A stretch of 50,311 nt of DNA from the IMG/VR virus record IMGVR_UViG_3300008267_000221, positions 1-50,311 of that record. One strand, written 5' to 3'. The notes under the pieces are model-generated. The model had not been told where the DNA came from. It did not search any database and saw only the letters and a program-made list of their open reading frames with translations. Shown in pieces: positions 14,401 to 48,009 of the stretch. Position numbers and translations under genes: made by a program. How positions within the stretch are numbered: the stretch's first letter is position 1; every line of letters starts with the position of its first letter. This DNA comes from a virus.

Positions 14401-17400
14401 CAACACCAGAGAAGTTTACAACAAATCCTTCTTGATTTACATCTGCTCCTTTTTTATTATCTTTTGTTTTGTCTATAATGACATCTAAAAATAGTCCAGT
14501 ATTTTTAGTATCATTATATACAGAATCTGGAAGAGCTTTTATTTTATTTTCAAGTTCTTTATTAGAAACAGGAGCTGTAGGAGCTGGTGTTACAGTAGCT
14601 TGAGACTTTTTTAACTCTTTTAACTCTTTCTCAAGTTCTGCTATTTGTTTTTCTGATGCAACTATAGCAGCGTTACTATCTGTATTACCTATGAACTCAT
14701 TTAATGTCTTGATTCTAGATTCAATTGATTTAATCTTATCTTCAACTGTTTGTGTAGCTGTAGGTTGTACAGCTGGGGCTGCAGGAGCAGCTTGTTGTAA
14801 TTTCTTTAATTCAAGAACAAGCTTGTTAGCTACAAATGTAGAAACCAATTCAATATCATCAGCTGAAGGATCAAATGCATTAGATGCTTTTAATGCTGGA
14901 ATAATAGCTTCATTTAAAAGCTTATCGTTCTTAGCAACTTTATTGATAGTATCATTTTGTATAACTTCAACAGAGATGTTACCATCTTTGTCAACAGTTC
15001 CTGTAAAGTCAACTGGTCCTGAGTTAAACTCTGTAAATGTATTCTTTGTCTTACCATCCATTTTGAATGTTCCTAACATGTCTGTAGCTGTAGGAGTGGT
15101 GGCTGTTACTGCAGGAGCAGGTTTAACCACTGGAACTACAGGGAATTCAAAATCAATAAGCGTAGCATATTTCTGTTTGAAAGAATATGGACGTAATGTT
15201 GAAGGTTTATCAAGAGTGGTGGTTAGAGGAGTGTTAGCTGTATTTCTAGCTGAACCATCTGGGTTCTTAGAAGCTAATAGGTATGATTGGTAGTTCTTCC
15301 ATTCAATCTCTTGAAGACTTCCATCCTTGTATGTAAACTCATAGAACGGAGCACTGAACTTCTTAGATAGGGTGAAGTTGTTTGTATTGTGGTAGGTGTT
15401 AGTTAATTGTTCTGTGATTTCTTTCTCTCTGTTTGCTATATCATTAATTGCATATCTCTTACCACCTAAAAAGATCTCAGCTGATTTAGCATCTATGAAC
15501 ATCTGGTTAGAACCAGCTTTTGTAACTGCTCCTTTGGTACGTAGATATAGAACATTCTGTAAGTATTCTGCATATTTAGGATTGATGTCCTTTGTCTTCA
15601 AGAACTCATCACTCATAGCTTTTATCACTTGATAAACATTCTGAGCTTTCTCTTTTCCAAGAACAGCATTCTTCAAGAAGAATAATGTATCACCGTATTG
15701 AATTACAGGAGTTCCTTTAGGAAACTGTATGTTCTTTCCTTGATGATATACATTACCATCTACAGGAACTATAACCAGTCCTTGTTGTCTAGATATTTTA
15801 TTCTCAGGAATAACAATATCTCCTACATGGTTTCTTTCATATTTACCATTAACCTTAGGGGTTTCAATAGCAATACCTCTTGAGATGTTGAACTTATAGG
15901 TTTTAATTGTTGTTCCTGCATCTTTGAATAACTGCTCTCTTTTAATCCTCCAAGCTTTAGAATAAGCTTCAAATGCTTCTTTCTCTCCAGTTCTAAATCT
16001 AGGAATACGGTTACCATCTTTATCTGTACCTTTGTAGTAGATATCAGTGGTAGGCATGGTTTGGAATATCACCTTACTAACATCAACAGGTTGTCCCACT
16101 TCACCAAGTCTTTCACCATTCTTATCTATGAAATAGTTCTTTCCACCATCTTGTTCTATAAAAACTTGAGCTACTAATCCTTCATCTACATTTGTAGATT
16201 GAGACATATCCTCTCCATTATAAGAAAGAGCTGTAAGCCCCTCAAGTCCAAGAACTTTCTCTTGGTTAGGGGTTACAAGAAATGCTCTAAGATTTTCTCT
16301 GTTCTTAAAGTTCTTAGCGTTGTTCAAAAACTCTCTAGAGTTTCTAACATGTGTAGCATCTTGAGATACATCTTCTTTTTCAGTTTCAGATGTACCAGCA
16401 GCAAAGAACTCAGCAGCACTTTTTAATTTACCTTCAGGTATTGAAGAGATACCAACTTCTTCTTCAGGAGTACCATTATCACCAGATGCTAGTTCTATCT
16501 GTGTGATTTGTTTTTCTATCTTCTCAGAATCCTTCTTTATCTCAAGAGCTTCAGCCTCAGCCTTTGCTTCTTCTTCTGTAAGTTTATTGTTCTGTTCTTT
16601 CTGACTTTTGTAAACTCTATCAATATTATTTGTAACAATACCAACCACTTCATCAAGAGCACTGTCACTGTTTATACCAAATAGTCTCCTGAAGAAAGTT
16701 TTAAGATTGTCAACAAAGTTTTCCCATACACTTCTTTGTGTGTTCTTATATGGAATAGTGTCAAGATATCTCTGGAAATCTCTATTTGAAAGAGCCTCTG
16801 TAGCAAATTCTTCTATATCCTTAAATGCATAAAACTCTCCATTTTTTAAAAGACCGTTGTTTGCATACTTATTCTCATCATTTTTAAAATGTTCTTGAAC
16901 AAATTTAAATAATGGTTCAAGTTCTTTATGGAAAGGATCACTTTTATCAAGTAGTGCATATACAGTGAGGTCATGTCCTATTTCATGAAGCATTACATAC
17001 TCAACAGGCATTGTAACTCCTTCATAATCATCAGAATTATATTCGTAGTTTATTGTACTAACAGATGCTGTTGGACTTGAAAGATTAGTTTTAGATATCC
17101 CAGGAACATTAAGTGTTCTATCTCCAAGAATAATCTTAGAGTTCCTGTCTGTATACTTCATGAACTGAGCAGCAAGTTCCTTCTCCATAGTTGTAGCAAA
17201 TGGAGATTCTGTTATCTTCTTGAGAACTTCATACTTACTTTGCTCACCTTCACCATACTGACTTACAAGATCATCATATGTTCTTTTATCTCCCTTAAAA
17301 GGAAGTCTACTTTGAGCTTGCCAATTTTTACCACCTTTAGTTTTTTGTGTAGGAGTAGTTCTGAACTTTTTACCTTCTTCGTTAAATTCTTTTCTTTCTC

Positions 17401-19723: not shown

Positions 19724-19732
19724 AGTGTTTTT

Positions 19733-22342
19733 TTACTTAATGTCTAATTGAGAATAATCAAAATTTGGATGTTGTGATTTTAAATATTTTAAAAGAACAT
19801 CATCTGTTAAAGCATTCAAGTTTGTTCTACCTTGATCAAATCCTACTCTTGATAGCTTATCTATTCCTGAGATAGGGAAGTTTTGCCATCTACCATCTTT
19901 TTTCTTTACATTTATCATTGGAATATAAAGGTCAGGATTACTAAGATCTTGATCAAGATCTGCTGTAATATTCATTCTTCTAATTCCTGGGAAATTACCA
20001 AATGCTTTTTGCATAAATGCATCATCTGCATTACCTGTAATATTTGTATTACCTCTTCCTAATTTAAGTCTTGTGGATTCTTGTACATTAGCATTAGCAT
20101 AGTTAGCACCAAAGTTAGCAATGATGTCTTCTCTACTAACTTTTATTCTTTGTACTTTCTTAGGATCAGATTCACTCTTGAGAATAACTTCATAGTTGTT
20201 CCCACTCTGCTGTACAAATATTCTTGTATCTTTAGAATTTTTACTTTCTAACATACCAGATGCTGTTTCAGGATCATAGTTAATATCAGCAGAAGTTCCT
20301 CTAGCAATTGTTGCTGTAACAAGAGCACTAACTTTACCTAAGGTTGCTGAAGTAGGAGAACCATCTTTGTCTGCTCCTAATGCTTTAATTTGTGGTACAA
20401 AGTCTGTTACTAAAGGTGCAAGTTTTTGTTTATATATTTCATTTGATTTATTTACCGCACCTTTTAAACTTGTTACTGCGGATGCGTATTGATTAGTTAC
20501 ATTTTTTACTTGATTTCTAATACCGCTATACTGTTCTCCTGAGCGAAGATTTCCATACAATACACCTTGCATAGATTCAACAAAATCTCTTTGATTTTTA
20601 TTAAGATTTTTTGTATCAACTACTGTGATTGATTGAGTTGTACCACTACCCATTGTTAATCCTGGAGATCCTCCTCCAAAATCACTAACTCTTTTACTAC
20701 TTGTTGCTGTTTGTATTCCTAATATTTCTTCTGGAGTAAGTTTTATATTTTTACCAGCCCAATTTATATTTAAAGATGGTTTATTTGCAAGAGCAATTCT
20801 CCTTGTTTCATTAATACCTGCTTCTTTATCAGCTTCAGCTCTTAATTGATTGCTCTTTTTTTCTAATGCTTGTAGATAGTTTTGTTGTTTTAATATCTGT
20901 TCAACGGTTCCCATGGCTTTTGCAGGGATATCCATCTTCTTATTCAACATCATATTTATCTGAGTGTCATTATACCCAGCATCATTTAATGTCTTACGTA
21001 ATCCTTTTATTTCATTTGCAACACCATCAGAGTGCTCAACATACATTTCACTTGCCTTTAATGTATTGTCTGTTGGATTACCAAGAGTTGTCCATGGACT
21101 ATCTACACCATAAATCTCAGCTTTCTTTAAAGCATTTGCTTCAGCATCTATCAATAATTTTTGTCTATCTATAGCAATTTTATCATCCGCTTGTCTACTA
21201 GTTACTGAGAACTCATATCTTTCTCTATTCTCTTTTTGTATTCTAAGTTTTTGTTCCTCCACCCAATTCAACTGTTGTCTTGCTGGATTTGTAACATATT
21301 GCATAGTCTCATTCTTCCAAGAGAAAGCATTAGATAGTTCTTTTATAAATCCATCTTTGTATATAGAAGACTTTACAGCATCTGGATTTTCTAAAGCATC
21401 TTTTAAATTTTGATTTAGCTGTTCTTGTAATGTTCCTGGTTTTCCGTCTTTACCAACTAAAGACTCATAGTATTCAAGTTGTTTATTTATAGCATCTAAT
21501 TGTGTAGGATCTTCTGTTGTCTTTTTCTTATCATTTAACAAATCTATGGTAGCTACAGCTTCTGTTCTACTAGACTCATAAATAAGTTTAGCTCTTTGCT
21601 CAAGAGCCTCTGGAGTTACACCCCTAAACTGATACCTTGCGTCTATTGATAGCTGATTAACATCGTCAGGAGTGAGAGTTGCAGATATTGCTTCTTTGAT
21701 TTGTCCTTCATCAATTCCTTCTATCTTATAGCGTTGCATAGCATCAGCTATCTTTTTGGTGTTAACCTTTCCATCAACAACCTCAAAAGGAACATCATAT
21801 TCTTGTAATTTGGGATGTAATAGTTTAATAGCCTCTAATGCTCTCTTTTTTACATCTGTGTATTGTGTATATCTACCACTAAATGATCTACCAAGATCTT
21901 TAGATGAAATATACTCATTTGCTTTCTCATTAAAATCCCAGATATTAGCTTGAGAAGATTTACCTGCTTTTACAGCAGACTCCATTTCTTGAGCTTGTTT
22001 TCTATACCAAGCTGTAGAACTCACTGCAGTTTGTACATCTTTATCCTTTCCAACTTGTCTAGCCATACCTCCAACAGAGTTAACTAGTTGGAAGTTAGAG
22101 AAGTCTCCTGCAGCAAATGTCCTTAGATTAGTACCAAGTTCATCAACTTTAGATTGCAGATATTCCTTATCTACATCTCTTATAATATCAAGGCCAACAA
22201 CTTTGTCTATTTCACCCTGGATTTTCTTATACCCTTCTTCATATTGGGCCTGCTTTTGCATACCCACTTTCACCATAGCATCAACTGGTAGTTGTGCTAC
22301 GTAGGGGTTAAATTGGGTTATTGCGTCTGTAAAACTTGCCAT
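19733..22342 (-). CDS. Putative internal (cargo/ejection) virion protein, 869 residues
   Basis: This is a hydrophilic, largely helical protein with many Lys, Gln and Glu residues. Its N-terminus (FNPYVAQLPVDAMVKVG followed by heptad-like helices) resembles large uncharacterised virion proteins encoded beside the RNA polymerase in crAss-like phages. Residues about 270-410 have strong coiled-coil character (QLDAINKQLEYYESL, EEQKLRIQKENRERYEF). No catalytic motif or signal peptide is seen. It is the first gene after a terminator-like hairpin and a candidate promoter, and is followed nine bases later by the RNA polymerase, so the two are probably co-expressed and co-packaged. A structural role is well supported by context; the specific cargo function is inferred from the known presence of internal cargo proteins in crAss-like virions. 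Confidence 0.6.
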   Translation of the reverse strand: MASFTDAITQFNPYVAQLPVDAMVKVGMQKQAQYEEGYKKIQGEIDKVVGLDIIRDVDKEYLQSKVDELGTNLRTFAAGDFSNFQLVNSVGGMARQVGKDKDVQTAVSSTAWYRKQAQEMESAVKAGKSSQANIWDFNEKANEYISSKDLGRSFSGRYTQYTDVKKRALEAIKLLHPKLQEYDVPFEVVDGKVNTKKIADAMQRYKIEGIDEGQIKEAISATLTPDDVNQLSIDARYQFRGVTPEALEQRAKLIYESSRTEAVATIDLLNDKKKTTEDPTQLDAINKQLEYYESLVGKDGKPGTLQEQLNQNLKDALENPDAVKSSIYKDGFIKELSNAFSWKNETMQYVTNPARQQLNWVEEQKLRIQKENRERYEFSVTSRQADDKIAIDRQKLLIDAEANALKKAEIYGVDSPWTTLGNPTDNTLKASEMYVEHSDGVANEIKGLRKTLNDAGYNDTQINMMLNKKMDIPAKAMGTVEQILKQQNYLQALEKKSNQLRAEADKEAGINETRRIALANKPSLNINWAGKNIKLTPEEILGIQTATSSKRVSDFGGGSPGLTMGSGTTQSITVVDTKNLNKNQRDFVESMQGVLYGNLRSGEQYSGIRNQVKNVTNQYASAVTSLKGAVNKSNEIYKQKLAPLVTDFVPQIKALGADKDGSPTSATLGKVSALVTATIARGTSADINYDPETASGMLESKNSKDTRIFVQQSGNNYEVILKSESDPKKVQRIKVSREDIIANFGANYANANVQESTRLKLGRGNTNITGNADDAFMQKAFGNFPGIRRMNITADLDQDLSNPDLYIPMINVKKKDGRWQNFPISGIDKLSRVGFDQGRTNLNALTDDVLLKYLKSQHPNFDYSQLDIK

Positions 22343-27145: not shown

Positions 27146-29101
27146 TTAATTGTATTTATCTAACCAACCACCTGTTGATTTTTTGTTTAATGGGTATTCT
27201 GTAACCTTCTTACCTTTGAACTTATACTCTTGCTCTGGATACATCATCTGTACATCTCCTTTATCAGAGATTCCAAGAACAGGATAGGGAACACCTTGCA
27301 TTGTTATTTGGTTTGAGCCTATTTCTGTTATCTCTCCAGGATGTGCCCATTGTCCTCTATCATCTTTTATAACACCACCATCTTTGTAATAAGAGTCTAC
27401 ATATTTTACAAACTCTGGATTTTGTCTAAGAACATTGTCTCTAATATCTACAACCTGTTTTCCATAAAGAGGATTTTTTTTCATACTAAGTCCTTCTTTT
27501 GGAATAGGAACACCATATATCTTCTTCATCTCAAACCCATGATAATCTTTTTCTGTCTTTGGTGTTATAGTTCCCATACCATTATAAACCTGTAATCTTA
27601 AGTAGGGGTCTTTAATCTTAAGTCTATCAGCCTCCTTCATTTTACTTTGATACGCATTTATAAATGCATCATATACATCACCTTTACCCCAATCTCCAAG
27701 TATATGTCCTATATTATCATCTGTTTTTCCCCAACCAGTTTCTTGAAACGCTATTGATGCTAAATTCCAAACATCATCTTTGCTTAATTTTTTTTCCTTT
27801 GCCTTTTGCATCAACCTGTCCATGTGCTCCATATTATAATTTCCTGATGTAAGGTCTTTATTAGGATTCATAGCAAGTCCTGTAGTCATTCTTACTTTAC
27901 GAGGATCTTTAATTGTCATCATCCTTGATGTCACTTTTTTTGTAGGAACATTACTTTTAGCAGCTCCAAGTGAGATCATAGGTGCAGGAGTAGGAGTTAT
28001 TGGTTTTTTTGGAACATCTATCGGATCTATTAATTCTATTCCTTCATCAGCTATAGGAATAAATGATCCATTTCTACTGATACTTTTTGGTTTCCAATCT
28101 AGACCATGTTGATAGTAGGTCATACCATTCTGAGCTACAGGAGCTTGTTCACCAGGAACAGCTGTCACCTCATTAAACACACGCTTGTATGTAGGAACAT
28201 TGTTCTTAATAGAATTCATGAAATCTGATATCTCAGACTTGTTCTCACTACCTTCGTAGTTCTCTAGATACTTATTAAAGTTTGGATGGTTTTTTAACAG
28301 CTCTGCTTTTTCCTCAGGAGAAGTTGATGATCCCATCCACTTTCTAAAATCAATCATCTCTTGTGCCTTCTCATCAGTGATAGGTTGAGATGGATCTATT
28401 TCAAATACATCAAACATTCTATTCCTTCTTGTATAAAACTCAGTGGGCTTTGTTACATACTTTGACCAACTTCTAGTCACATTACCTTTAGGAAATCTCT
28501 CTTTAAATTCTTTAGGTGAGATTATAGATTCCTCAATGATTCGTTGTTCATTCTTAGGTAGGCTCTCATATACAGAATGTCCTATTTCATGCTCTAATAT
28601 TTGAAGTTCATCATAAGGATCATAACCTTCTGAAGTTACCATTTGATTATTGTATCCTACAGTGTTTGTATCTGGATAGTATAAACCATATGCGTTTAAT
28701 TTCTGCAAACGCTCAAGTGGAATTTCTTCAATGTTTACATTTTGTACAGCCCCACTAGCAATGTCACCACTTAGATTAGCAGGTCTGTTAGAATAAAAGT
28801 CAAACATGCTTTGTCTAGCTTGTTCAACTTCAGGATCAGTTTGTGAAATAATTTCTCCAGTTTGAGCACTAGCTTTTGTCTTCTTAGCATATGGACCATT
28901 AGAAGGAATACCCTTCGTGCGTGCGTATGTGAATCCTACAGTTCCAGGAATAGAACCACCCATAGCAAACTGCCCACCCCATGCAGGAGAATAGTTTCTA
29001 CCTACATTACTATATCCTTCTCCCACCCAATTCTCTGGAGCAGAAGAACGTCCTTCATTAGCGTTTATTTCTTTACCGTATTTATCTAACCAACCTTTCA
29101 T
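27146..29101 (-). CDS. Virion-associated zincin plus muramidase-like protein
   Basis: This 651-residue protein appears to combine two enzymes. A zincin metallopeptidase-like motif HEIGH lies at residues 171-175 within LQILEHEIGHSVYESLP. A lysozyme-like segment around residues 435-520 has AFQETGWG near 454, where the Glu fits the catalytic acid of transglycosylase-like folds. The C-terminal about 70 residues (GQWAHPGEITEIGSNQITM, then PYPVLGISDKG and MMYPEQEYKF) match a terminal module common in crAss-like lytic proteins. The protein starts with MKGWLDKYG and ends with GGWLDKYN, encoded by an identical 18-base direct repeat at each end of the gene. The start codon overlaps the preceding stop by one base (TAATG). 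The likely role is local cell-wall opening during entry, or lysis. The zincin substrate is unknown. Confidence 0.65.
   Translation of the reverse strand: MKGWLDKYGKEINANEGRSSAPENWVGEGYSNVGRNYSPAWGGQFAMGGSIPGTVGFTYARTKGIPSNGPYAKKTKASAQTGEIISQTDPEVEQARQSMFDFYSNRPANLSGDIASGAVQNVNIEEIPLERLQKLNAYGLYYPDTNTVGYNNQMVTSEGYDPYDELQILEHEIGHSVYESLPKNEQRIIEESIISPKEFKERFPKGNVTRSWSKYVTKPTEFYTRRNRMFDVFEIDPSQPITDEKAQEMIDFRKWMGSSTSPEEKAELLKNHPNFNKYLENYEGSENKSEISDFMNSIKNNVPTYKRVFNEVTAVPGEQAPVAQNGMTYYQHGLDWKPKSISRNGSFIPIADEGIELIDPIDVPKKPITPTPAPMISLGAAKSNVPTKKVTSRMMTIKDPRKVRMTTGLAMNPNKDLTSGNYNMEHMDRLMQKAKEKKLSKDDVWNLASIAFQETGWGKTDDNIGHILGDWGKGDVYDAFINAYQSKMKEADRLKIKDPYLRLQVYNGMGTITPKTEKDYHGFEMKKIYGVPIPKEGLSMKKNPLYGKQVVDIRDNVLRQNPEFVKYVDSYYKDGGVIKDDRGQWAHPGEITEIGSNQITMQGVPYPVLGISDKGDVQMMYPEQEYKFKGKKVTEYPLNKKSTGGWLDKYN
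27152..27169. repeat. 18-base direct repeat, copy at the 3' end of the zincin/muramidase gene
   Basis: The string GTATTTATCTAACCAACC is identical to 29078-29095. On the coding strand it encodes GWLDKY at the extreme C-terminus of the 651-residue protein. The two copies are 1,926 bases apart and bracket almost exactly one gene. Confidence 0.85.
29078..29095. repeat. 18-base direct repeat, copy at the 5' end of the zincin/muramidase gene
   Basis: This is the second perfect copy of the repeat at 27152-27169. It encodes GWLDKY at residues 3-8 of the same protein. Because codons as well as residues are identical, it looks like a recent duplication or a recombination scar rather than only protein-level convergence. 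Confidence 0.85.
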
Positions 29102-30003
29102 TATTTGTAAGAGATTTGAGCAGGAGCTGTTATAAATTGACTTACTAGGTGAGCATCAGATCTGTTATCTAGGATGTGTCTTACTTTTAGTTCTTTAGCT
29201 CTGAGGGGTTCTTTTTTAAATGATCTTTTTCCATAATCCATATTCGATTGATTTACAATCTTATCTACTGACATAGAAGAACAGCAGTCTGTTATAAACA
29301 AAGGTACGGATTTATTTTTAACTAATGACCAAAAAGTGTTATATTGATAAAAATTATCTGATTTTGTATATGTAATAACTTTACTATTAGGATTGTATAT
29401 GGGGTATTTCATATACTCCTTTAAGTTGTTCATGGGTTTTGGTACGAGCTCTAGAATACCAGAAGACTGTTGCCCATTGTATAAGACTGCTTTATTAAAC
29501 CATCTATCATCTGTTTCCACCCTAGCATTATCATTCCATACACCATCTGTGTTTGAAAAATACTTATAAGCTTTGGTGTAGTCTTTTACATTCTGTAGGA
29601 TTTCATCCTGGAATTGATAGGAGAATGGATATTCTATAATGTATGGTTCTATGTTTCCATAGAAGTAGTTATATAGGACAGGGTTTGTCAAGTGCCTCCA
29701 GAGAGTTGCTGTGTTCTTATTTTCAAATCCTATTGTAGCAAGCTGTGCTGTATCATACTGTAGAACAGAAACTCTAATTTCTCCTGCACACTTACCAACA
29801 CACCCACCTAGAGATTTAATAATCACCACACTAACATTCTTATCCACTATATATGACATCCCACTAATAAGATCTTTCTTAGATACTTTTTCTGATAAGA
29901 CATTTCCATAGTTGTCTGTAACAGAAAAAGGACCTGTGCGTAAACCTGCTTTAGTCAGTTTTACCACTATAATCTTTTCATTTGGTGCTAATTGTATTTC
30001 CAT
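29101..30003 (-). CDS. Muzzle (tail nozzle) C-terminal segment fused to a decoration domain
   Basis: This is a 300-residue protein. The start chosen is the ATG at 30003, which overlaps the previous stop as TAATG; an upstream in-frame start at 30036 is less likely. Residues 1-85 form a beta-type domain (GPFSVTDNYGN, then SYIVDKN) that resembles the N-terminus of the 247-residue decoration protein (DTGPFNLYSN, SYIVPDG). From about residue 95 (TLWRHLTNPVLYNYFYGN) the text resembles the C-terminal part of T7 gp12-like tail nozzle proteins, with DDRWFNKAVLYNGQQSSG and RSFKKEPLRAKELKVRHIL. I therefore read it as the last piece of the muzzle encoded upstream at 31225-35829, now a separate polypeptide. 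The muzzle relationship is inferred from remembered family patterns and from order; alignment would settle it. Confidence 0.6.
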   Translation of the reverse strand: MEIQLAPNEKIIVVKLTKAGLRTGPFSVTDNYGNVLSEKVSKKDLISGMSYIVDKNVSVVIIKSLGGCVGKCAGEIRVSVLQYDTAQLATIGFENKNTATLWRHLTNPVLYNYFYGNIEPYIIEYPFSYQFQDEILQNVKDYTKAYKYFSNTDGVWNDNARVETDDRWFNKAVLYNGQQSSGILELVPKPMNNLKEYMKYPIYNPNSKVITYTKSDNFYQYNTFWSLVKNKSVPLFITDCCSSMSVDKIVNQSNMDYGKRSFKKEPLRAKELKVRHILDNRSDAHLVSQFITAPAQISYK

Positions 30004-30908
30004 TATGGTATTGCTGTTGTAGTAGTTGTTGTACAATCGTCATTTGTTGTGCAAGATGTATTTCCTCCAGATACAGTTACACCGCTTCCCACTGCTAAGT
30101 TCATATTTGTAACACATATATTAATTGTTGTTGATGCAGGAATGTTATAATTAATTGTCTCACCAGCACAATTTACATAAACAAGAGGAACTTCACATAA
30201 TGTAGTGTTTGTTAACTCATAACAGAAACAAGTGGTACATCCAGGACCATATAATGATACAGTTACATCACCTGGTGTAAATGGTTCTGTAGAAGAACAA
30301 AGTTTTATAACAGGCTCTGTACAAGAACAAATTTGATAGTATTCACGATCTATATTTACCTCAACTTCTGCACCAGTTGTACAATCTGTATAAGATGCAA
30401 CATGTATAGTTGACGTAGGATTATTTATAATGTATGTTGAGCACAAAGGACAAATGGTTGTTGTTGTACTAGTTGTACAGTTAAAAGTTGTTGTTGAAGA
30501 TGTTGTACTAGTTGTAACAGGAGGAGTGATATCAATAGCACTACCTTCAAGATCACAATCTAGAGATACAACTTGACCGCTAATATCACAACCAAGAGTG
30601 GTTGATGTTGTAGTTGTAGAAGGTGCAGGTTTACAATCTATACATTTAGTTGTTGATGTTGATGTTGTAGGAACAAATGGAACTTCTTCACCAGCAATAG
30701 CCTCAATATCACATCCTCCATTCAATCCTGAATAGAAGAAGTTGTTCTCTCCTATATAAAAATTTGGAATATATGTATGGAAAGAAATCCAACTCTTTGT
30801 ATTCATATTGAATGAAAGAGTCCAGGATTTATTACAGAAATAGTCAGGATCTGTAACATCCACTACAGTTCTAATTGTTATAGGTATTAAATTATTTTGA
30901 TCAGACAT
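30003..30908 (-). CDS. Split-muzzle segment carrying Thr-rich linkers and Cys-rich modules
   Basis: This is a 301-residue protein. Residues about 20-65 (DYFCNKSWTLSFNMNTKSW and SFHTYIPNFYIGENNFFYS) look like a nozzle/muzzle segment. After residue 80 come Thr/Ser-rich linkers alternating with small Cys-rich modules. Two modules share the pattern DC-x-G, about ten to fifteen residues, I-C, then a glycine-rich strand; the last ends NDDC followed by six Thr and AIP. The start codon is in the same frame as the preceding 118-residue ORF, separated from it only by the stop TAA and one AAG codon. The stop overlaps the next start as TAATG. The modules probably form surface decorations on the tail nozzle. 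Whether the piece is made separately or by readthrough is unknown. Confidence 0.55.
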   Translation of the reverse strand: MSDQNNLIPITIRTVVDVTDPDYFCNKSWTLSFNMNTKSWISFHTYIPNFYIGENNFFYSGLNGGCDIEAIAGEEVPFVPTTSTSTTKCIDCKPAPSTTTTSTTLGCDISGQVVSLDCDLEGSAIDITPPVTTSTTSSTTTFNCTTSTTTTICPLCSTYIINNPTSTIHVASYTDCTTGAEVEVNIDREYYQICSCTEPVIKLCSSTEPFTPGDVTVSLYGPGCTTCFCYELTNTTLCEVPLVYVNCAGETINYNIPASTTINICVTNMNLAVGSGVTVSGGNTSCTTNDDCTTTTTTAIP

Positions 30909-30911
30909 CTT

Positions 30912-31268
30912 TTATAATTCTGGGTTACTTATTGATGAACAAGCCTCAGCACAACTTGTATATCCTCCAGAGAAATCATTAACTCCATATATAGGAGAAG
31001 TTATAGCTGGGGACATAACTTTGTATATTACATTCAATGGAGGTGTAGAACTTGTATAAAAATTACCAACTGTAAGATTTGCATTAGGATCAATCTCTGA
31101 ACAAACAGTTGTTGTACCAATAGGAACAGTACATCCAAAAGGACCATCACAATCATACATTTCAGCAACATATGATTTTACAGAAGGAATTGCTGTTGTT
31201 GATGAAGAACTAGTGGTAGATGTACTAGAAGATGTGGAAGATGTAACACACTCTATATGTTGTACCAA
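30912..31268 (-). CDS. Fragment: Thr-linked decoration module split from the muzzle by a frameshift
   Basis: This open frame begins with a TTG directly after a TAA in its own frame and overlaps the end of the 1,534-residue muzzle ORF by 44 bases in a +1 frame. It opens with a Thr/Ser-rich linker (TSSTSSSTSTTSSSSTTAIP), exactly what is expected to follow the Cys-rich module with which the muzzle ORF ends. It then encodes a small beta-type module with several Cys residues. Joining the frames near the TGT-TAC codons at about 31240 restores one continuous protein. I think this is part of the muzzle gene rather than an independent gene with a TTG start. A sequencing indel, a real frameshift mutation or recoding are all possible. 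Confidence 0.5.
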   Translation of the reverse strand: MVQHIECVTSSTSSSTSTTSSSSTTAIPSVKSYVAEMYDCDGPFGCTVPIGTTTVCSEIDPNANLTVGNFYTSSTPPLNVIYKVMSPAITSPIYGVNDFSGGYTSCAEACSSISNPEL

Positions 31269-34200
31269 TTACACTTGGTATACTATCAAATTGACGATTG
31301 CCTAAACAATCTACCCATGAAAATGGAACCCTACCTCCACAAGTATTATTAAGAACTTCAAACTCTATACAGAAACAAGGATTAGGAATCTTTGTTGTAG
31401 AAGATGTAGAAGTGGGAATTGTACTGGTTGAAGTGGTTGTGGGGCAATAGAAAGCAACTTCTTCTATGTAGAACTCTTTAGTGGTTTCATCATACTTAAC
31501 CCTTGGATCAATAGGAATGTAGTCAAGCTTTGTTAGAATCACTCTATCATATTTGCTATCATATACACCATGTAGCCCTATTCCATTGAAATGATTATCT
31601 GTATCAGCGTTAGGGAAATATCTTAAGATTTCAAATGCAAGATGGTCTGTAAAGAACCTGTTAAGCCCTGAACCAAATCCTGAAAGATCTGTAGCTTGAT
31701 TACCTCCAAGAAGGAAAACTTGTCCTCTCTTAGCATCAGCTGTTATCTGTCCTTGAGGGATCTTGAGCAACATTTTGTTCTGACTTCCTACATAACCAAG
31801 ATCTGTTTCTGCAAAATCTATAGGAGGAGCACTTTTGAATAGAGTGTCATTACCAAGATAGGCAGCTTGAGGATTACTTGTTTGTACTGTAAGTAGGGTG
31901 TTGTACAATAATGACTTGTTCTCAAACCTAGCTAGAACAGCTCTGTTCTGAATACCATCAAGAGAAATAAGACCTCCATAGTTCTGAGGGAAATCAAATG
32001 ATGATATTGGACGATATATTAACCAGCTATTTACAACATCATCTACAAAACTTTGCTGACGATCAGAATATATAGCTCTGAATGGAAAATATGTATTACA
32101 AAGTCTTGGTTCCCAATCTATAGGAAGATGGGTAAAGAAGTTCTCTTTATTCTGTTTAGAATAAGTTACATTGTAATAGTATGTATTATCTTGGGCTATT
32201 GTTACAAAGCTCTCTTGAAACCAATCATCAGGAATATCTGTACTTACGTGAGGCCAGAAGTCTCCTTCTTTATTATTAAATGCTTGTCTAAGATCTGTAT
32301 TAACACTTGACTCACAATAGAAGTTTGGAATACCGTAAGCAAACAAATAGAAATATCCATCATAATATGTTTCTGTAGTTCCAGCATCCACTTGTCCAGG
32401 TGAGTTAGCTGGTCCACTAAAACAGTCAAAGTTGTGAGCTTTGTATGAGATTATGTTAGCAAATGTTTTTCCATTATATGTATAGTCTTCTAGAATAGAT
32501 CTTGATGAATGCCAATATTTAGGATAGCCAACATTACCAATTTCATCATAGAATATATCAGAATCATCAGGTGCACCTACACGATTATCTATGAAGAATG
32601 GAAGTTTTGTTTTAAATGTAAATCTAGAGATGAATGTATCACCACCAAATACTACAGCTTGAGATTTTAAGTTTGTACTAAAGTCTAATTGGAATCCTGT
32701 ATCTATTGTATTGTAAGAATACATCTGACCCCATTGATTAACAAACTCATTTTTCAAAGAAGCATAGTATGCTACTGTTGTTATATCTTGAGGTTTATTA
32801 GGAGCATTACAAGCATTTCTATCAGATATTGCAAATCTAGAAACATCTTCTATTAATCTAAATCCTCCTGAAGGATTCAAACTAGGTGTATCGCATGGGA
32901 ATGGAAGAGTTGATTTTTCAGTGTCTGTTTTTAAATATACAGAAGATTCTCTATTCCAGTTGTTGATATTAAAGGTATCACCAATTGATTGTACACCAGG
33001 AATAAGATATTGAGAGATTTCAAGATCTCTTTGCTTAACTCCAAGATCATTAGGTATAGCTGCACTATAATCATAACTAGCTATAGAGTTGAATGATTGT
33101 GCATAGTTTCTTCTTGTAATACCATTTATATAAATAGTGAGATAGGCTTGATATGCTGTAAAAGCACCTGTAGCATCTGTTACACCATCAACTGTTGCTA
33201 CATTAAATGAAGAATCTAATGATTTTACTTGTGCTTCCTTACTTAAGAGTTTGTATGTAGCATTGTTTCTAACTTGTACAAAATGTGCTCTACCAGCACC
33301 ATACATTGCACTCTCAAGTTTAAGAATTCTTCCTAAGAAAGGTTGTCCAAATGATGTCTCAGGAGAGTTGAAGATTTGTCTGTATTTTAAATCTTCATCA
33401 GTAAATGCACTTAATGGTTTATCAAGATCACATGTGCTTCCTGGATCAACTGTATCTAATAAACTCACTCTTCTTGTACAAGGACATGTCCAATTACAAT
33501 CTGCGGTATCATCAGCTACATATCCACCAACTTCAACAATTATAGAAGTTATTCCTGATGTATTATTAAATGGATCTTGTCCATCAATTGTTTGACAATT
33601 AAGACTGCTATCACCTTGCAGAAATTCTGAACGATCTATAAAATCAGTGTTATCACTTGTAAAAGGATCTTTCCAGAAAACACGATATCCTGAACAGTTT
33701 GGTAAAGCAAGTGTTGTGTATGGGAAAGGTACTGGAACAATTGGACCACAACCTGTAGCTCGATACACTTGGTAGTTTGCAGGTCCTATTATAGCACCAC
33801 CTGTAAGATGTTTAGGTCTTGTCAAAGAACATATAGTGATTGTTTCACCACTCACCATATCTTTGGATGTGGTTTTTCCTGTATTAGGATCTGTAATCTG
33901 ATAGGTTCCTGTTGTTGTACATCTTATTAACCAGGTCTTTGATTCTAATGAATATGCGTTATTATTTGCATTTATAAACTTGTCCTCATTTAAATCATTA
34001 TAAGGATAGTTGGGGAAGTAGTATTCTGTTTCTTCTCTTTTATACTTTCCTACATTTCTCAAGATACCCTTAGCAACAATAGACTTGTTTGTACTTCTAT
34101 CACCTCTCACTATCTTAAATCCAGCAATATCATTCTTTTGTTCACGAGTTAAACTTGATGCTTGAACTAATCCTTCAATTTGATCTATGTCAATCTTAAC

Positions 34201-35829
34201 TCCTATAGGAAATACTGATTCACTTGTTTGCATTTCCACTGAATACTTTCCAGCAACAATAGTTGGTGTAGCACTCTCAAATATAGGACTAACTAGAACA
34301 TCTGGAAACTTGTGATGCCTAATAGGTTTGTTAGCAAGTTCTCCCCATACAAGTTCATTACAAGGGTAAACTTCTTCAGATTCCCAATATGCAAACTCAC
34401 CAAATTTATATGGTGTAGCATTACCAATAGGATCTCCTGCAGCATTCCCTGCTACAGAGGCTGTATTATAAATCTTCCAATAAGGACTATATCCTATTCC
34501 TGTTCCTGGATCTACGTATGAAGGAGTTCCTACAAAATCATTATTTGTAGAAGGAACATCTGGCACACCTATTTCATTAGGTCCAAGTTCTCTTCCAGGA
34601 ATATGAAAACCTTCTGTTTGTTTACCATTCTTCAAGAGGAATACAATCTCAAATGCATACACTTCATCTCTAAGATAGCCTCTTAGGTTTGTAGCATTGA
34701 GTTCATCAGAATAGTTCTCGGTAGCAGGGATTTTGTATGTCTGCCATTGAAGCTGAATTTGGTTAGCTATTCTTTGATAGTTAACCTTATCTATGGATGT
34801 TAGATTATCCCAGATTAGAAGATCTTGCACAGCAGTGAGATCTTGAGCTATTTCATAATATGGAAACTTCTCAAATATATCATTGATGGTAAGTCTAACT
34901 TGTTCTTGATTCTGTCCAGTGTAAGTGACTCTTCTTTCGCTATCATCAATAAAGTATGTACCAACTAGCTCTACAGAGGTGATGTTATTAATAGTCTTTA
35001 TTACAGCTAAGTTGAAATACTTAAAATACCCTGTAACATCAATGTTGTTAATACTTAATACAATTGTCTTACCCACCTCATAATTAAAATTAGGAGTGGT
35101 AAGATTAATATCAGCAATAGGGGTGGGATTTGTAACAGAGAAATAAGATGTATAACCATCTCCTACAGAGTCACAATATTGAATAGCAAATTGATATGTA
35201 CCAGCAATTAAAGATCCACCTGTTGTAACATCTGTAACAGAAAGTTGTGGGATATCAAAGTCTGGTTGTATGTTAAGTTTATTACAATCAATAATAGGAA
35301 TAGTCTCATTAGCACAAACATCTGTTCCTGGTTTAACTGTATAAATACTTGTAACATCATCTAAGTTTAAGAACCTTCTTTGATTTAGTCCATCTGTCCA
35401 ATAAATCTCTGTAGTGCAATTTGTGATTTTGTGTACAGCCTTATGTATTGGATATTGAATATCAAAGTTTAAACAATCAGCATTAACATATGTATGATAG
35501 ATACAATCATTGTTCAACATAAATCCTATCTCAGATTTCTTAAGATCAGGATTAGCTAAGAAGAATACATGCTTGTTTTGTTCTGCAATAAAATGTTCAC
35601 CTATTACATGATATCCTGTTGGAAAGTCTAAACAAAACTCATTACCAGGTTCATTCTGGTAGTTTACAGAGTTTGCATCAAAATTCTCAACAGAAGCATT
35701 CAATGCATAGCTTAGAGTTCCTTTTGGTATCTGATTCACAGACTGGTCCATATTCATACCAGTTCTACCATTATTATACTCAAGCTTTACATTTCCAGCA
35801 CCTAATGATTGTTCTTGTTCTTCAGCCAT
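31225..35829 (-). CDS. Muzzle/tail stabilisation protein (T7 gp12-like nozzle), main part
   Basis: This 1,534-residue protein has the start typical of phage nozzle and tail stabilisation proteins (NNGRTGMNMDQSVNQIPKGT followed by YALNA). It continues with beta-propeller-like repeats rich in Asn, Thr, Tyr and Asp. Late in the protein DRVILTKLDYIPID marks the conserved region before the nozzle's terminal part. After VAFYCP a Thr/Ser-rich linker and a partial Cys-rich module follow (CFCIEFEV, SWVDCLGNRQ), and the frame ends at a TAG inside the next Thr-rich linker, consistent with a frameshift. It starts 11 bases after the 325-residue tube-like protein. In podoviruses this protein closes the tail tip and directs adsorption-triggered release. 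The call is strong from size, N-terminal pattern and gene order. Confidence 0.75.
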   Translation of the reverse strand: MAEEQEQSLGAGNVKLEYNNGRTGMNMDQSVNQIPKGTLSYALNASVENFDANSVNYQNEPGNEFCLDFPTGYHVIGEHFIAEQNKHVFFLANPDLKKSEIGFMLNNDCIYHTYVNADCLNFDIQYPIHKAVHKITNCTTEIYWTDGLNQRRFLNLDDVTSIYTVKPGTDVCANETIPIIDCNKLNIQPDFDIPQLSVTDVTTGGSLIAGTYQFAIQYCDSVGDGYTSYFSVTNPTPIADINLTTPNFNYEVGKTIVLSINNIDVTGYFKYFNLAVIKTINNITSVELVGTYFIDDSERRVTYTGQNQEQVRLTINDIFEKFPYYEIAQDLTAVQDLLIWDNLTSIDKVNYQRIANQIQLQWQTYKIPATENYSDELNATNLRGYLRDEVYAFEIVFLLKNGKQTEGFHIPGRELGPNEIGVPDVPSTNNDFVGTPSYVDPGTGIGYSPYWKIYNTASVAGNAAGDPIGNATPYKFGEFAYWESEEVYPCNELVWGELANKPIRHHKFPDVLVSPIFESATPTIVAGKYSVEMQTSESVFPIGVKIDIDQIEGLVQASSLTREQKNDIAGFKIVRGDRSTNKSIVAKGILRNVGKYKREETEYYFPNYPYNDLNEDKFINANNNAYSLESKTWLIRCTTTGTYQITDPNTGKTTSKDMVSGETITICSLTRPKHLTGGAIIGPANYQVYRATGCGPIVPVPFPYTTLALPNCSGYRVFWKDPFTSDNTDFIDRSEFLQGDSSLNCQTIDGQDPFNNTSGITSIIVEVGGYVADDTADCNWTCPCTRRVSLLDTVDPGSTCDLDKPLSAFTDEDLKYRQIFNSPETSFGQPFLGRILKLESAMYGAGRAHFVQVRNNATYKLLSKEAQVKSLDSSFNVATVDGVTDATGAFTAYQAYLTIYINGITRRNYAQSFNSIASYDYSAAIPNDLGVKQRDLEISQYLIPGVQSIGDTFNINNWNRESSVYLKTDTEKSTLPFPCDTPSLNPSGGFRLIEDVSRFAISDRNACNAPNKPQDITTVAYYASLKNEFVNQWGQMYSYNTIDTGFQLDFSTNLKSQAVVFGGDTFISRFTFKTKLPFFIDNRVGAPDDSDIFYDEIGNVGYPKYWHSSRSILEDYTYNGKTFANIISYKAHNFDCFSGPANSPGQVDAGTTETYYDGYFYLFAYGIPNFYCESSVNTDLRQAFNNKEGDFWPHVSTDIPDDWFQESFVTIAQDNTYYYNVTYSKQNKENFFTHLPIDWEPRLCNTYFPFRAIYSDRQQSFVDDVVNSWLIYRPISSFDFPQNYGGLISLDGIQNRAVLARFENKSLLYNTLLTVQTSNPQAAYLGNDTLFKSAPPIDFAETDLGYVGSQNKMLLKIPQGQITADAKRGQVFLLGGNQATDLSGFGSGLNRFFTDHLAFEILRYFPNADTDNHFNGIGLHGVYDSKYDRVILTKLDYIPIDPRVKYDETTKEFYIEEVAFYCPTTTSTSTIPTSTSSTTKIPNPCFCIEFEVLNNTCGGRVPFSWVDCLGNRQFDSIPSVIGTTYRVCYIFHIF

Positions 35830-35840
35830 TTATTATTGTA

Positions 35841-36818
35841 TTAGTTATTTCTTCTCCACCCATATCTGTTAGTTCTATTGGGGAGCTCATACATGTTAAA
35901 TCTATTGAGGTCATTCTTTATTCTTCTTTGCTTAGCATAAGCATCTTGTTTCTTAATCTCTATATCAGCCATGATGAATGCTTCTTCTGACATTTGCTTA
36001 TAGTATACAAGCTTTTGTTGTATTTGTTGGAAGGTCTCATCATTTATCTGGTTCGAGAGAGTTTCAAACATCTTATACTTAATAAAAGCTTCTATGTATT
36101 CTCTGATACGATAGTTGTCTGGAATCATTTGATTACCACTATTATCATACTCTGTAGCATAGAATATTAAATGCACCACTCCATTTCTGAAGTTAGTTAC
36201 AAACTTATTGTCTCTGATATCAAAGCTGTCAGCAGCTGAAGCTCCTGGAGTTGAAGATCTATTAGCAACTCCTGAATATCCATAGAGTTCCCAGTTATTA
36301 TTATAATCTACACCACAGTTATTTCTTGCAGAAATGTTTCCTGGCTTAAGTAGATATTCTTGTCTATAAGATCTTCCTGATTGTTGATTGGTTTTATATA
36401 CAGCTTGTATAAGTTCAGGCATACATGTACCATCACATTGAGAATTTTGACATGATGGGTTATTACAAGGTGTACCTCCTATTGTTAGAGGAGAAACTTG
36501 TATTGTGGTTTGTGAAGAGGCTTGTGAGTAGAATGAATTAGCTGTTTGATATGGATAGCCAGGAACCTCTGTACACAACCAAGCTTCTCTTACAGCAAAG
36601 AAATTATCTGGAAGTCTAGCTTCAAAGTCTTCTATATGAAGAACTTGTTCAGAAATAACATATGAAGATCTTCCTAGTTTTCTAAGACACTTATCGGTGT
36701 ATGTAGGAAACATAAGATCATCTACAGCCCCTGTATCAAAATAGCTCTTCAGCTCTTCCTTAATAGTGGAGTAGACAATCTCAGGAGATGTGAAATTGTA
36801 TTTGTAATAATAGCTCAT
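35841..36818 (-). CDS. Tail tube/ring protein (T7 gp11-like)
   Basis: This is a 325-residue protein placed immediately before the muzzle, the position of the tail tubular protein in podoviruses and crAss-like phages. The N-terminal helices (SPEIVYSTIKEELKSYFDTG, then LRKLGRSSYVI) followed by a beta segment (LPDNFFAVREAWLC) fit the adaptor/tubular fold. A Cys-rich insertion near residues 115-135 (CNNPSCQNSQCDGTC) could bind metal or form disulfides. The C-terminal helices (IREYIEAFIKYKMFETL, AYAKQRRIKNDLNRF) resemble the helical ends of tube proteins. It lies 11 bases after the IHF-like gene and 11 before the muzzle. No catalytic motif is present. The fold call is from pattern and context, not alignment. 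Confidence 0.6.
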   Translation of the reverse strand: MSYYYKYNFTSPEIVYSTIKEELKSYFDTGAVDDLMFPTYTDKCLRKLGRSSYVISEQVLHIEDFEARLPDNFFAVREAWLCTEVPGYPYQTANSFYSQASSQTTIQVSPLTIGGTPCNNPSCQNSQCDGTCMPELIQAVYKTNQQSGRSYRQEYLLKPGNISARNNCGVDYNNNWELYGYSGVANRSSTPGASAADSFDIRDNKFVTNFRNGVVHLIFYATEYDNSGNQMIPDNYRIREYIEAFIKYKMFETLSNQINDETFQQIQQKLVYYKQMSEEAFIMADIEIKKQDAYAKQRRIKNDLNRFNMYELPNRTNRYGWRRNN

Positions 36819-36829
36819 TATTTATTTAT

Positions 36830-37303
36830 TTATTTTCTCCATTCCCTGTAGAGATGTTGATACTTCTCATCAGTTTTAATGTAGTGTGAAAGCAATCTTG
36901 ATGTTGTACGAGATGGTTTGAAATACCAAAGGTCTACACCTTTAAGTCTTGCTGTATCTTTGAACCACATCCATCCAAAGAAATATCCTTCTGTGTGGTA
37001 GTTAAAATTATATATCCTTTTTCCTTTCTCTTTTGTTTTTTGCCAGTCTATTGGAAGATTTACAAACTCATCATTAAGTCCCTTCTTCTTTCTACGCTTC
37101 TTCTTATTAATAGAAAACTCACCAAACCCAAAAGGCATTTTAGCTTTATCACCAGTCTCTAATATATAGTTCTTGAAGGATTCATTGAAAGAATAGAGAA
37201 TATTTCTCCATTCATCAAATGTAAGTTTTATTGATGGGTTCTTCTTACAGAAGTTGTTGTAGTTTTCTTTACTTGCAGATCTCCAATCTATTTTTACTCT
37301 CAT
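36830..37303 (-). CDS. IHF/HU-like virion protein
   Basis: This 157-residue basic protein has a segment (residues about 46-75: LETGDKAKMPFGFGEFSINK followed by KKRRKKK) that resembles the beta-arm entry of HU/IHF proteins, where a GFG-F motif precedes basic residues. An IHF-like subunit is a known conserved member of the crAss-like structural block. The rest (TEGYFFGWMWF, then LWYFKPSRTTSRLLSHYI) is aromatic and basic. The start overlaps the preceding stop by one base (TAATG), suggesting translational coupling. Its neighbours are a ring-like protein and a tail-tube-like protein, so the fold may have been reused as a tail ring component rather than a DNA-bending protein. The assignment is moderate. 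Confidence 0.55.
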   Translation of the reverse strand: MRVKIDWRSASKENYNNFCKKNPSIKLTFDEWRNILYSFNESFKNYILETGDKAKMPFGFGEFSINKKKRRKKKGLNDEFVNLPIDWQKTKEKGKRIYNFNYHTEGYFFGWMWFKDTARLKGVDLWYFKPSRTTSRLLSHYIKTDEKYQHLYREWRK

Positions 37304-38031
37304 TAGCTTCCAGCTGGGGCATTTGGTGCTTGTCCATCTATTCCGTTATCTGTTAAATCAGTTTTTAATGTGAAGTAGGTAGATAGTAGTTTCTGAGATG
37401 TAAGTTCTAACACTTGCTTCTCTAGATAACCAGGTAGAGCGTATTCTTTATCAAGAGGGTTTTTGCACCACTCTTCATCAGTGGGTTCTCTATCTCCACA
37501 TCCACATTCAGGATACATAATCTCATTAGGAATATCTTGCTCAAAGAAAGCAGATATTCTAATTGCTTGTAACAATGGATTGCTAACATATAGATAGCCA
37601 TTCATTATCCAATAGTATTCCTCATTCTTAATGATAGGAAGTTTAAGTAGATTTATATATCTATTTATAGTTATTTCTTTCAACTTCTTACCAGCACCAC
37701 TCATTGCATTTATTGAATAAACACCTTGAATAAGATATTGGTAGTTTCCTTCAGATATGCGTGGAAGTTTAAATCTACTTCTAGCTACAGTGCAATTATC
37801 TACATATTCACAACATTCAGAAATAGGAACTTCCACCATTTCCAAACAAGGAATGGTGGTAAACAATGTACTAGTAGCCCAGAGTTTTCTTAGATTAGTT
37901 TCTCTCTTTACTAGCAATAACGTATTGTTTCTAATTTCAGATGCAATTACACGATCTGTAATTAACTCATCTGTAGAAAGCAACTTGTGCGTTCCACGAA
38001 TATCTGAAACTAATTTTCTTAATGTTGCCAT
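37303..38031 (-). CDS. Conserved crAss-like structural protein, possibly a tail ring protein
   Basis: This is a 242-residue protein lying five bases after the phosphoesterase gene and overlapping the next gene as TAATG. It has an N-terminal helix with KLVSDIRGTHKLLSTDELIT, a Cys-bearing segment (VEVPISECCEYVDNCTV) and a second Cys pair (PECGCGD), and a Pro/Ala/Gly C-terminal tail. I recognise the arrangement as that of a conserved protein of the crAss-like tail block but cannot name a biochemical activity. Its placement just before the IHF-like and tube-like proteins suggests a ring at the head-tail interface. It could equally be a head completion protein. Confidence 0.5.
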   Translation of the reverse strand: MATLRKLVSDIRGTHKLLSTDELITDRVIASEIRNNTLLLVKRETNLRKLWATSTLFTTIPCLEMVEVPISECCEYVDNCTVARSRFKLPRISEGNYQYLIQGVYSINAMSGAGKKLKEITINRYINLLKLPIIKNEEYYWIMNGYLYVSNPLLQAIRISAFFEQDIPNEIMYPECGCGDREPTDEEWCKNPLDKEYALPGYLEKQVLELTSQKLLSTYFTLKTDLTDNGIDGQAPNAPAGS

Positions 38032-39444: not shown

Positions 39445-40188
39445 TTATAATGAACAACTTGACACAGAATCAATTGTTCCTAAACCATCTATTACAGTGA
39501 AGCAATCTGAAGCATTAGAATAATATCCATTAACAGCAGGAATTGTTAGTCCTGAATCAGTGTATAAAACAGAAGCTGCACCTAATACAGGATCTGCACT
39601 ATAGTATGTTGTAGTCACTAATCCTGCACAAGCATTTGCACAACTTGTATCATCATATACTAATTCAAATGAATATGATGGAGTAGCTGTAGTAGTTGTT
39701 GTAGTTGTACAGTCAAGATCAGAAGCACAAGGAAGAGTTCCTCCTGTTACAACTAATGAACCATCACCTCCTGAGTATATAAATGAATCTTGTTGAGCAC
39801 AGATATTTACATCAAAATTTGATAGTTTGAAATTTTGAGGAACACCGTCACAATCTATCCAATCAACTTCATACTCACCTATTCCTGTCAAGTTATAACA
39901 GAAGCAAGGAATCTTTGTAGTTGTTGTAAAAGGTGGAACAGGAGGATCTGTAGAAGTGGTTGTGGTTGTAACATTTACAGTGAGGTCTATGTAGTTCTTA
40001 CAATCTCCACTAGACATCACTCTTATTATAGTGGTTCCATCAGGAACAATGTACGATGTATATCCCATAAGGAGGTCTATCTTTGCAACTCCCACTTCAA
40101 ATGCTGATACAAATCCATCAACATTTGAATATAAGTTGAAAGGCCCTGTGTCACTTCCAGCTATTGATAATGTAATAAATAATGTCAT
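39445..40188 (-). CDS. Modular tail decoration protein with Thr-rich linkers
   Basis: This is a 247-residue protein built of three small beta-type modules joined by Thr-rich linkers. Module A (residues 1-72) resembles the N-terminus of the 300-residue protein at 29101-30003. After a linker of Thr and Pro, module B starts CFCYNLTG, has WIDCDG and NICAQ, and ends DLDC; it resembles modules in the split muzzle region. After seven Thr and ATP, module C ends in a Cys-rich tail (SVSSCSL). It is the last gene before the strong terminator and follows the repeat fibre by 13 bases. I see no enzyme motif. A surface-exposed adhesion or decoration role fits the linkers and fibre neighbours, but the receptor or partner is unknown. 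Confidence 0.55.
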   Translation of the reverse strand: MTLFITLSIAGSDTGPFNLYSNVDGFVSAFEVGVAKIDLLMGYTSYIVPDGTTIIRVMSSGDCKNYIDLTVNVTTTTTSTDPPVPPFTTTTKIPCFCYNLTGIGEYEVDWIDCDGVPQNFKLSNFDVNICAQQDSFIYSGGDGSLVVTGGTLPCASDLDCTTTTTTTATPSYSFELVYDDTSCANACAGLVTTTYYSADPVLGAASVLYTDSGLTIPAVNGYYSNASDCFTVIDGLGTIDSVSSCSL

Positions 40189-45465: not shown

Positions 45466-46197
45466 TTATTCGTTTGTTTGTATTCTAAGCTGAGCAGTTT
45501 GTATTGCAGATTGATTCTCTGTATACATAGCTAAGTTTTGAACTGTAAGATCTAGAAGTTCGTCCTCAAGATAGGTTTCTAATTCACAATCTTGGTCTAC
45601 TGAGGGTGCACCGTCAAACTTGATATATCCTTCTTTATCAATGTATTTAGGATATCTCATGTATGTTATGTAGATTTTTGTTGGTGTAAAAGTACCATCT
45701 GTAAAGATTGATATTTCATCAGAGGATAAGAAGTTAAAAGTCTCTTGATACTCAAACGATGGTTTGTAATGTTCATTGTTTAGAATGAATTGTAAATCAC
45801 CGTGTTTAGCAAGATCTCTATTAATCCAAATTTTTCTATCCTTGCACCTTCCCTTATCAGCTAATATATAACTATCTAGATAGAACATATATTTAGGATT
45901 GAGAACATCTGTCTTAGCAAACCATTGATTTAGTTGTGGGTTCTTGATTTTAAGTTTCAAAGGTTGATTGTTATATGTAACAACAAGACTTTGAAGATCT
46001 TCATAACGCTTCTTGAAAGCATCTAGTCCAAGTCCACTCACTGTGCTCTGACCATCAACCTTTTGTTTTATCAGTTTGATTTGAGCTTCGTTGAGAGCTA
46101 AAATCTTATCTTCTAATTGAATCTGTTGATGATCATTAGTAGATAGTTTATTTAGTCTCTGGTCAATTTTATATAATAAACTATCTACTGGTATCAT
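45466..46197 (-). CDS. Head-tail adaptor or ring-type virion protein, 243 residues
   Basis: The protein starts with helical, charged residues (DSLLYKIDQRLNKLSTNDHQ) and then has mixed alpha/beta text with FAKTDVLNPKYMFYLDSYI and ITYMRYPKYIDKEG. It ends in a helix (LEDELLDLTVQNLAMYTENQ). This layout resembles conserved proteins of the crAss-like head-tail connector, but I cannot assign it to a named ring. Its ATG overlaps the TGA of the upstream gene (ATGA), indicating translational coupling. No enzyme motif is seen. Confidence 0.5.
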   Translation of the reverse strand: MIPVDSLLYKIDQRLNKLSTNDHQQIQLEDKILALNEAQIKLIKQKVDGQSTVSGLGLDAFKKRYEDLQSLVVTYNNQPLKLKIKNPQLNQWFAKTDVLNPKYMFYLDSYILADKGRCKDRKIWINRDLAKHGDLQFILNNEHYKPSFEYQETFNFLSSDEISIFTDGTFTPTKIYITYMRYPKYIDKEGYIKFDGAPSVDQDCELETYLEDELLDLTVQNLAMYTENQSAIQTAQLRIQTNE

Positions 46198-47343: not shown

Positions 47344-48009
47344 TTAGAATTGTGGAATCTCTTCGATCAACACTGTACGTGATAAGTCTTCAATGAACAC
47401 ATCACAACGGTCTTTCATCCAGATTTCATATCCTGGGAATTTGTTAGCAGAACTCATACCCTGAGACTTAGCAAAACCTAAGTGGTGACGAGTACCATCA
47501 ATATATCCCCAAGTCATAGAAGGAGCACCCTTCATACGAACCTCACGAATGTTGTTAACCATTGAACCATCGCTCATAGGACTAACATCAAACACCATAA
47601 ATACTGGAGTAGATTTTTTGTTCTGACCGAATTCCAAGTTTGATTGTGGAAGATCAAGTTCTTTCAAGTGAATAAGTTCAACACGTCCTGTTTCACGTGT
47701 AACCATTGCATCGAATGCAAAGTTATAAGTGATGTGTTGTCCTTCTCCTTGCATATAACGATTTCCAGAATCAGCCATGAAAGTAAGACCACTGTTAAGA
47801 GCATCAGTCTTCAAAGCTTGTTGGAACACGTCAAAACCAGCTTCATTAGTATACATCTTAACTTTACGATCTTTAACATCAACCCTTCTGTAGAAAAGAT
47901 CTCCAAACACTGAACGAATCAAGTTAGCAGAGAACTCACCACGATTGTATTGTACCAAGTTACCATTGTTACGCATTCTGTGATAAACACCAGCAGATGT
48001 ACGCTTCAA
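47344..48009 (-). CDS. Major capsid protein, C-terminal part (frameshifted)
   Basis: This is a 221-residue product if read from the TTG at 48009, but its frame is open up to 48039 and continues the capsid protein that ends at 48006 in another frame. Reading from 48039 gives VLETNGSKQELKRTSAGVYH, and a single-base correction within 48008-48039 (for example at the GG of ATGG) joins the two parts into one chain of about 496 residues. The text (FSANLIRSVFGDLFYRR, later MTWGYIDGTRHHLG) fits a capsid domain. A TTG start with no recognisable ribosome site is unlikely. It is listed separately because the sequence as given does not join. Confidence 0.7.
   Translation of the reverse strand: MKRTSAGVYHRMRNNGNLVQYNRGEFSANLIRSVFGDLFYRRVDVKDRKVKMYTNEAGFDVFQQALKTDALNSGLTFMADSGNRYMQGEGQHITYNFAFDAMVTRETGRVELIHLKELDLPQSNLEFGQNKKSTPVFMVFDVSPMSDGSMVNNIREVRMKGAPSMTWGYIDGTRHHLGFAKSQGMSSANKFPGYEIWMKDRCDVFIEDLSRTVLIEEIPQF

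Follow-up and report, generated by a model that had tools for sequence, protein, structure and literature searches.

The muzzle of crAss-like phages is a hexameric nozzle that forms the exit of the phage tail. In the record described here the muzzle appears to be broken into four reading frames, which raises the question of whether the breaks are errors of the record, places of recoding, or the borders of genes that together encode one structural protein. The window, as we call this record, is a complete IMG/VR virus entry 50,311 bases long; it belongs to a crAss-like phage whose capsid and tail genes lie on the minus strand.

The muzzle genes of the window

Checking the ORF coordinates and translations gave the four minus-strand frames as the original prediction had described them. 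They follow directly after ring protein 1, and the features of the region are as follows.

47344-48833, minus: capsid
45466-46197, minus: ring protein 3/4-like, weak match
39445..40188, minus: separate decoration gene, TGPF domain plus Thr-linked modules, upstream of ring protein 2; one module homologous to an ORF3 module
37303-38031, minus: ring protein 2
35841-36818, minus: ring protein 1, with the muzzle genes next after it
31225-35829, minus: ORF1, 1534 aa, ending in a Thr/Ser linker in the wrong frame
31459..35829, minus: muzzle body, ORF1 residues 1-1457 (Pfam crAss_MUZ, PHROG 37948/15100; end of homology set from relatives)
31225..31458, minus: site A Thr/Ser linker and first module, the end of ORF1, probably shortened by dropout
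31245..31246, no strand: position of 89 nt absent relative to record L002; the missing bases break the frame between ORF1 and ORF2 and were probably lost in assembly
30912-31268, minus: ORF2, linker and second site A module continued in +1; part of the body gene in L002
30906..30914, minus: site A stop and restart, TAA-AAG-ATG, kept in locus L003; 12 other loci alike
30003-30908, minus: ORF3, 301 aa, in the frame of ORF2 after TAA-AAG-ATG
30705..30908, minus: anchor2, the muzzle piece that opens ORF3 (PHROG, alignment)
30003..30704, minus: site B hypervariable cassette, Thr/Ser linkers and Cys-rich modules, the end of ORF3
30001..30005, minus: site B stop/start overlap of ORF3 and ORF4, TAATG; stop-to-start spacing compared over 129 loci
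ATG at 30003 down to 29101, minus: ORF4, 300 aa, with the TAATG overlap with ORF3
29728..30003, minus: "TGPF" domain, conserved at the N-terminus of the C-terminal muzzle gene product, in 129/129 C-terminal pieces
29101..29727, minus: anchor3, the C-terminal muzzle piece including the stop (PHROG 15100, fold match to 7qok/7qol, alignment)

ORF1 passes the Pfam crAss_MUZ model (PF25731; 7.9e-38, 130.7 bits, curated cut-off 27), while sequence-level muzzle matches of ORF3 and ORF4 came from PHROG profiles of intact crAss-like structural proteins only. The pieces match these profiles colinearly: phrog_37948 covers ORF1 (profile positions 1191-1744) and ORF3 (2052-2099), and phrog_15100 covers ORF1 (12-416), ORF3 (1546-1590) and ORF4 (1588-1778). 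The two PDB folds that best match an AlphaFold model of ORF4 (pLDDT 78) are 7qok_A and 7qol_P, both chains of the muzzle of phicrAss001 (probability 1.00, E about 5e-3; TM by query 0.33). PDB sequence searches with L072 or an ORF4 profile returned no muzzle, which was found by fold search only, and a DNA-level search of a phage collection gave no match. ORF1 is the body of the muzzle, and the C-terminal parts that it lacks follow in their proper order, the first opening ORF3 and the second closing ORF4. Homology of the 301- and 300-residue products to the muzzle, which the original prediction proposed, is borne out by the colinear profile matches and the ORF4 fold match. Its idea that a single ancestral protein is distributed among several polypeptides, decorated by modules where they meet, agrees with the colinear pieces and with the split loci described below. 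The best-matching isolate muzzle, PP438436.1, is from a phage recorded on Leptolyngbya, a cyanobacterium, an unexpected host for a crAss-like muzzle.

The closest described system is the phicrAss001 muzzle gp44 (7qok, 7qol; PF25731; PMC10172136), which is homologous over the body, anchor2 and anchor3 and whose gene also follows ring protein 1. However, gp44 is one chain of 1371 residues, whereas in the window, as in 128 other loci, the crAss muzzle pieces are divided among ORFs, so that the muzzle of this clade takes two or three genes with modules at the open ends. By alignment, site A corresponds to gp44 residues 1200/1201, and site B lies at about 1233-1237. Length variation through insertion is known in the crAss muzzle family and was described in the gp44 IG2/crass region (PMC10172136); in contrast, both openings of the clade lie past the IG2 domain (318-1021), which carries the crass domain.

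A probable assembly dropout and a genuine restart at site A

An independent IMG/VR record, L002, matches the window at 100% identity across 14,698 nt, apart from an extra 89 nt at 31245/31246. The gap of the window sits exactly on the ORF1/ORF2 frame break, and the frame is open through the junction in L002 and likewise at this position in L003, which is 88% identical. The major capsid gene of the window is also in two frames, with 64 nt missing near 48032, while the capsid is one intact ORF of 518-534 aa in 80/80 fetched relatives. Compared with the proteins of 16 related loci, these two places are the only frame breaks over about 19.8-50.1 kb. Given both the 64-nt and the 89-nt loss, we therefore take the record to carry assembly dropouts, and because the two losses are out of frame and one is in the essential capsid gene, the break between ORF1 and ORF2 most likely comes from an 89-nt dropout of the record and not from biology; a natural 89-nt deletion variant is possible. 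The original prediction had named an intact frame near 31240 in relatives as the sign of an artefact. Such a frame was found, and the first split has to be given up as a biological feature, while the splits at site A and site B stand.

At site A (ORF2/ORF3), the stop and restart are common to L003, where the preceding module is different, and the same plan occurs in 12 other loci, where the body ORF continues as a Thr/Ser linker and usually a module up to a stop, and an ATG then opens anchor2. In 24 further loci the site A insertion is in frame, and among insertions of more than 300 nt, 11 are split and 2 are in frame. From the comparison of these loci we regard the site A stop and restart as real and not an artefact. 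With both sites open, the window would have three muzzle genes: ORF1+ORF2, ORF3 and ORF4. We also observed that site A is open in a subclade of seven loci (L258, L260, L264, L266, L268, L270 and L297), four members of which have a Fib_succ_major module there.

The division of the muzzle at site B

Among the fetched loci, 133 distinct ones contain both anchors, and in 129 of these the muzzle C-terminus is in an ORF of its own, the C-piece. The four intact loci are L072 and the isolates Lbo-JY46, FpV4 and csAssE-Sib, and the muzzle of phi17:2 is also annotated as a single gene. Lbo-JY46, csAssE-Sib, FpV4 and phi17:2 belong to the same family and have both anchors in order (anchor3 of phi17:2 by alignment only), but their anchors are adjacent in one ORF and no TGPF domain was found at the junction. 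Searching for intermediates with the csAssE-Sib muzzle gave two further relatives, both intact, and with the Lbo-JY46 muzzle gave none. The distance between anchor2 and anchor3 is at least 297 nt in split loci and at most 18 nt in intact ones, and no locus with both anchors has an in-frame site B insertion of more than 60 nt.

Every C-piece (129/129) starts with ATG and the same domain of ~80 residues, the TGPF domain, and in 128 of them the ATG is -1 to +30 nt from the preceding stop (median +10). It is preceded by A-rich sequence. The ORF before the C-piece is the anchor2 ORF in 85 loci and an intervening ORF in the other 44, the three frames of the C-piece relative to that ORF occur 52, 48 and 29 times, and the stop of the anchor2 ORF is TAA in 126/129. 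We found no host genome contig with a C-piece. Judged from these sequences, the gene split at site B extends across the clade.

L072 is nested among split phages in a muzzle-body tree made by a quick method, in a fully supported group with the split L065 and L066. Its single chain across the junction reads FFYSGLNDCDGFTSTQQSATSCMWRHLKNP, with no TGPF domain and no modules. The simplest reading of this one contig, which ends inside the last piece, is a secondary re-fusion; if so, two chains would be equivalent to one, and the fused chain suggests that the two pieces form one domain. An AlphaFold model of the fused region reached a pLDDT of 36 with alignments that were too shallow or misaligned, and was discarded. 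The split is likely derived within crAss-like phages, although the outgroups are on very long branches.

We consider it quite probable that the crAss-like muzzle of this clade is encoded by separate, closely coupled genes whose pieces fold together and whose open ends bear the modules. Assembly or sequencing errors in an intact single-chain gene are a cause that we accept for ORF1/ORF2 alone, in view of the 89 nt absent relative to L002 and the 64-nt capsid dropout. As a general cause we reject them as very improbable, with site B split in 129 distinct contigs that have a conserved start domain, and the site A stop kept in L003 and its plan recurring in 12 loci. Nor do we expect the chains to be joined in translation by programmed frameshifting or stop readthrough, the second of two readings in the original prediction, which would yield muzzle variants with different decorations. 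The frames are adjacent or overlapping in some loci, the window included, but programmed recoding implies a fixed frame and no independent start, and we found mixed frames, nearly uniform TAA stops, intervening ORFs in about a third of the loci, and for each C-piece an A-rich stretch and its own ATG, at which the conserved domain begins. Mixed frames, own ATGs and the spacing to the stop therefore argue for separate coupled genes, and we give recoding hardly any chance.

Removal of the cassettes by RNA or protein splicing, from an intron or a split intein, seems just as remote. The phicrAss001 muzzle gene has an annotated group I intron endonuclease close by, but an Rfam scan of the window had no match to an intron or other RNA element, the shortest gap (297 nt) is nearly all coding sequence of the conserved domain, and the cassettes are open frames of unrelated modules with no intein family in the Pfam scans. 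The C-piece could also have turned into a separate tail protein that has a role outside the muzzle, which its own start and its extra N-terminal domain, common to separate decoration proteins, would fit. We think this unlikely, since neither anchor occurs twice in any locus and the muzzle would be left without a C-terminus; the strong conservation of the piece and the fused chain in the nested L072 also speak against it.

Variable modules at the open ends

The segments between the anchors change much faster than what surrounds them. The tail after anchor2 is 476 aa in L201 and 202 aa in L204 despite near-identical anchors, and 77 and 154 aa in L034 and L035, while within these pairs the bodies are 97-99% and the C-pieces 98-99% identical. 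A run of at least five Thr/Ser is present in 125/129 tails. Pfam matches were few among 87 module-bearing segments, and most modules match no family; those recognised are Fib_succ_major, which four segments have at site A, DUF285 repeats in L075 and DUF5122 beta-propellers in two, so that some modules are surface-type domains. The swappable modules are probably receptor-binding, though with most of them matching no family this function is a guess. Contig ends show only a weak excess in the cassette.

Several cassettes are unusual in themselves. L075 has 6.3 kb between the anchors (14889-20898) with ten DUF285 matches plus an ORF of 866 aa, and L175 (2687-7732) has the longest cassette seen, with 1,682 residues after anchor2 on one muzzle ORF. 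In L060, a 61-aa ORF within the cassette between the muzzle genes (11794-11979) starts with MKKIIIVFILSVFLISCNE and is small-lipoprotein-like.

Fib_succ_major is listed as a target domain of diversity-generating retroelements (PMC4159848), and the site A module of four relatives has it in common with those target proteins. In contrast to them, the variation in this clade is gain, loss and swapping of modules, and no reverse transcriptase was found in the records of eight relatives, mostly fragments, so we did not retain such an element as the source of cassette variation.

The N-terminal domain of the C-piece also heads separate decoration genes; 39 loci have such genes between the muzzle genes, and 57 have them upstream. 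In the window, the decoration gene at 39445-40188 has one Thr-linked module homologous to an ORF3 module (BLASTP 4e-7). Given this match and the common N-terminal domain, modules and a docking-like domain are common to proteins of one genome, and the muzzle-borne and the free decoration proteins may share the TGPF domain as their dock.

Returning to separate, closely coupled muzzle genes, the sequences show a chain that is opened at one or two short junctions, site B and site A; the upstream piece ends in Thr/Ser linkers with fast-changing modules, and the downstream piece restarts at its own ATG, opening at site B with the ~80-residue domain. In the virion the pieces would fold jointly to give the muzzle its usual C-terminal part, with the modules displayed at the open ends, around the nozzle and facing the host, as arms for receptor binding or decoration. 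Independent restart would allow a cassette to be swapped, lengthened or frameshifted while the essential C-terminal piece is spared. More tentatively, and with somewhat less than even confidence, we propose that gene splitting is an evolvability device, in which the essential nozzle domain is initiated independently, the adhesin cassette is free to vary, and the chains rebuild one domain in each particle, perhaps with the TGPF domain as a common dock.

In the openly accessible literature that we searched, only single-chain muzzles are described and a split muzzle is not. Ejection in one of the most abundant phage orders is probably gated by the muzzle, which has been described as highly conserved, yet a whole clade encodes it in two or three chains, opened where the variable modules sit. 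Searches with full-length muzzles will miss or mis-annotate the split genes, and the split accounts for one kind of seemingly broken tail gene in metagenomes. It also makes testable how an essential structural protein can be cut, decorated at its free ends and still assemble.
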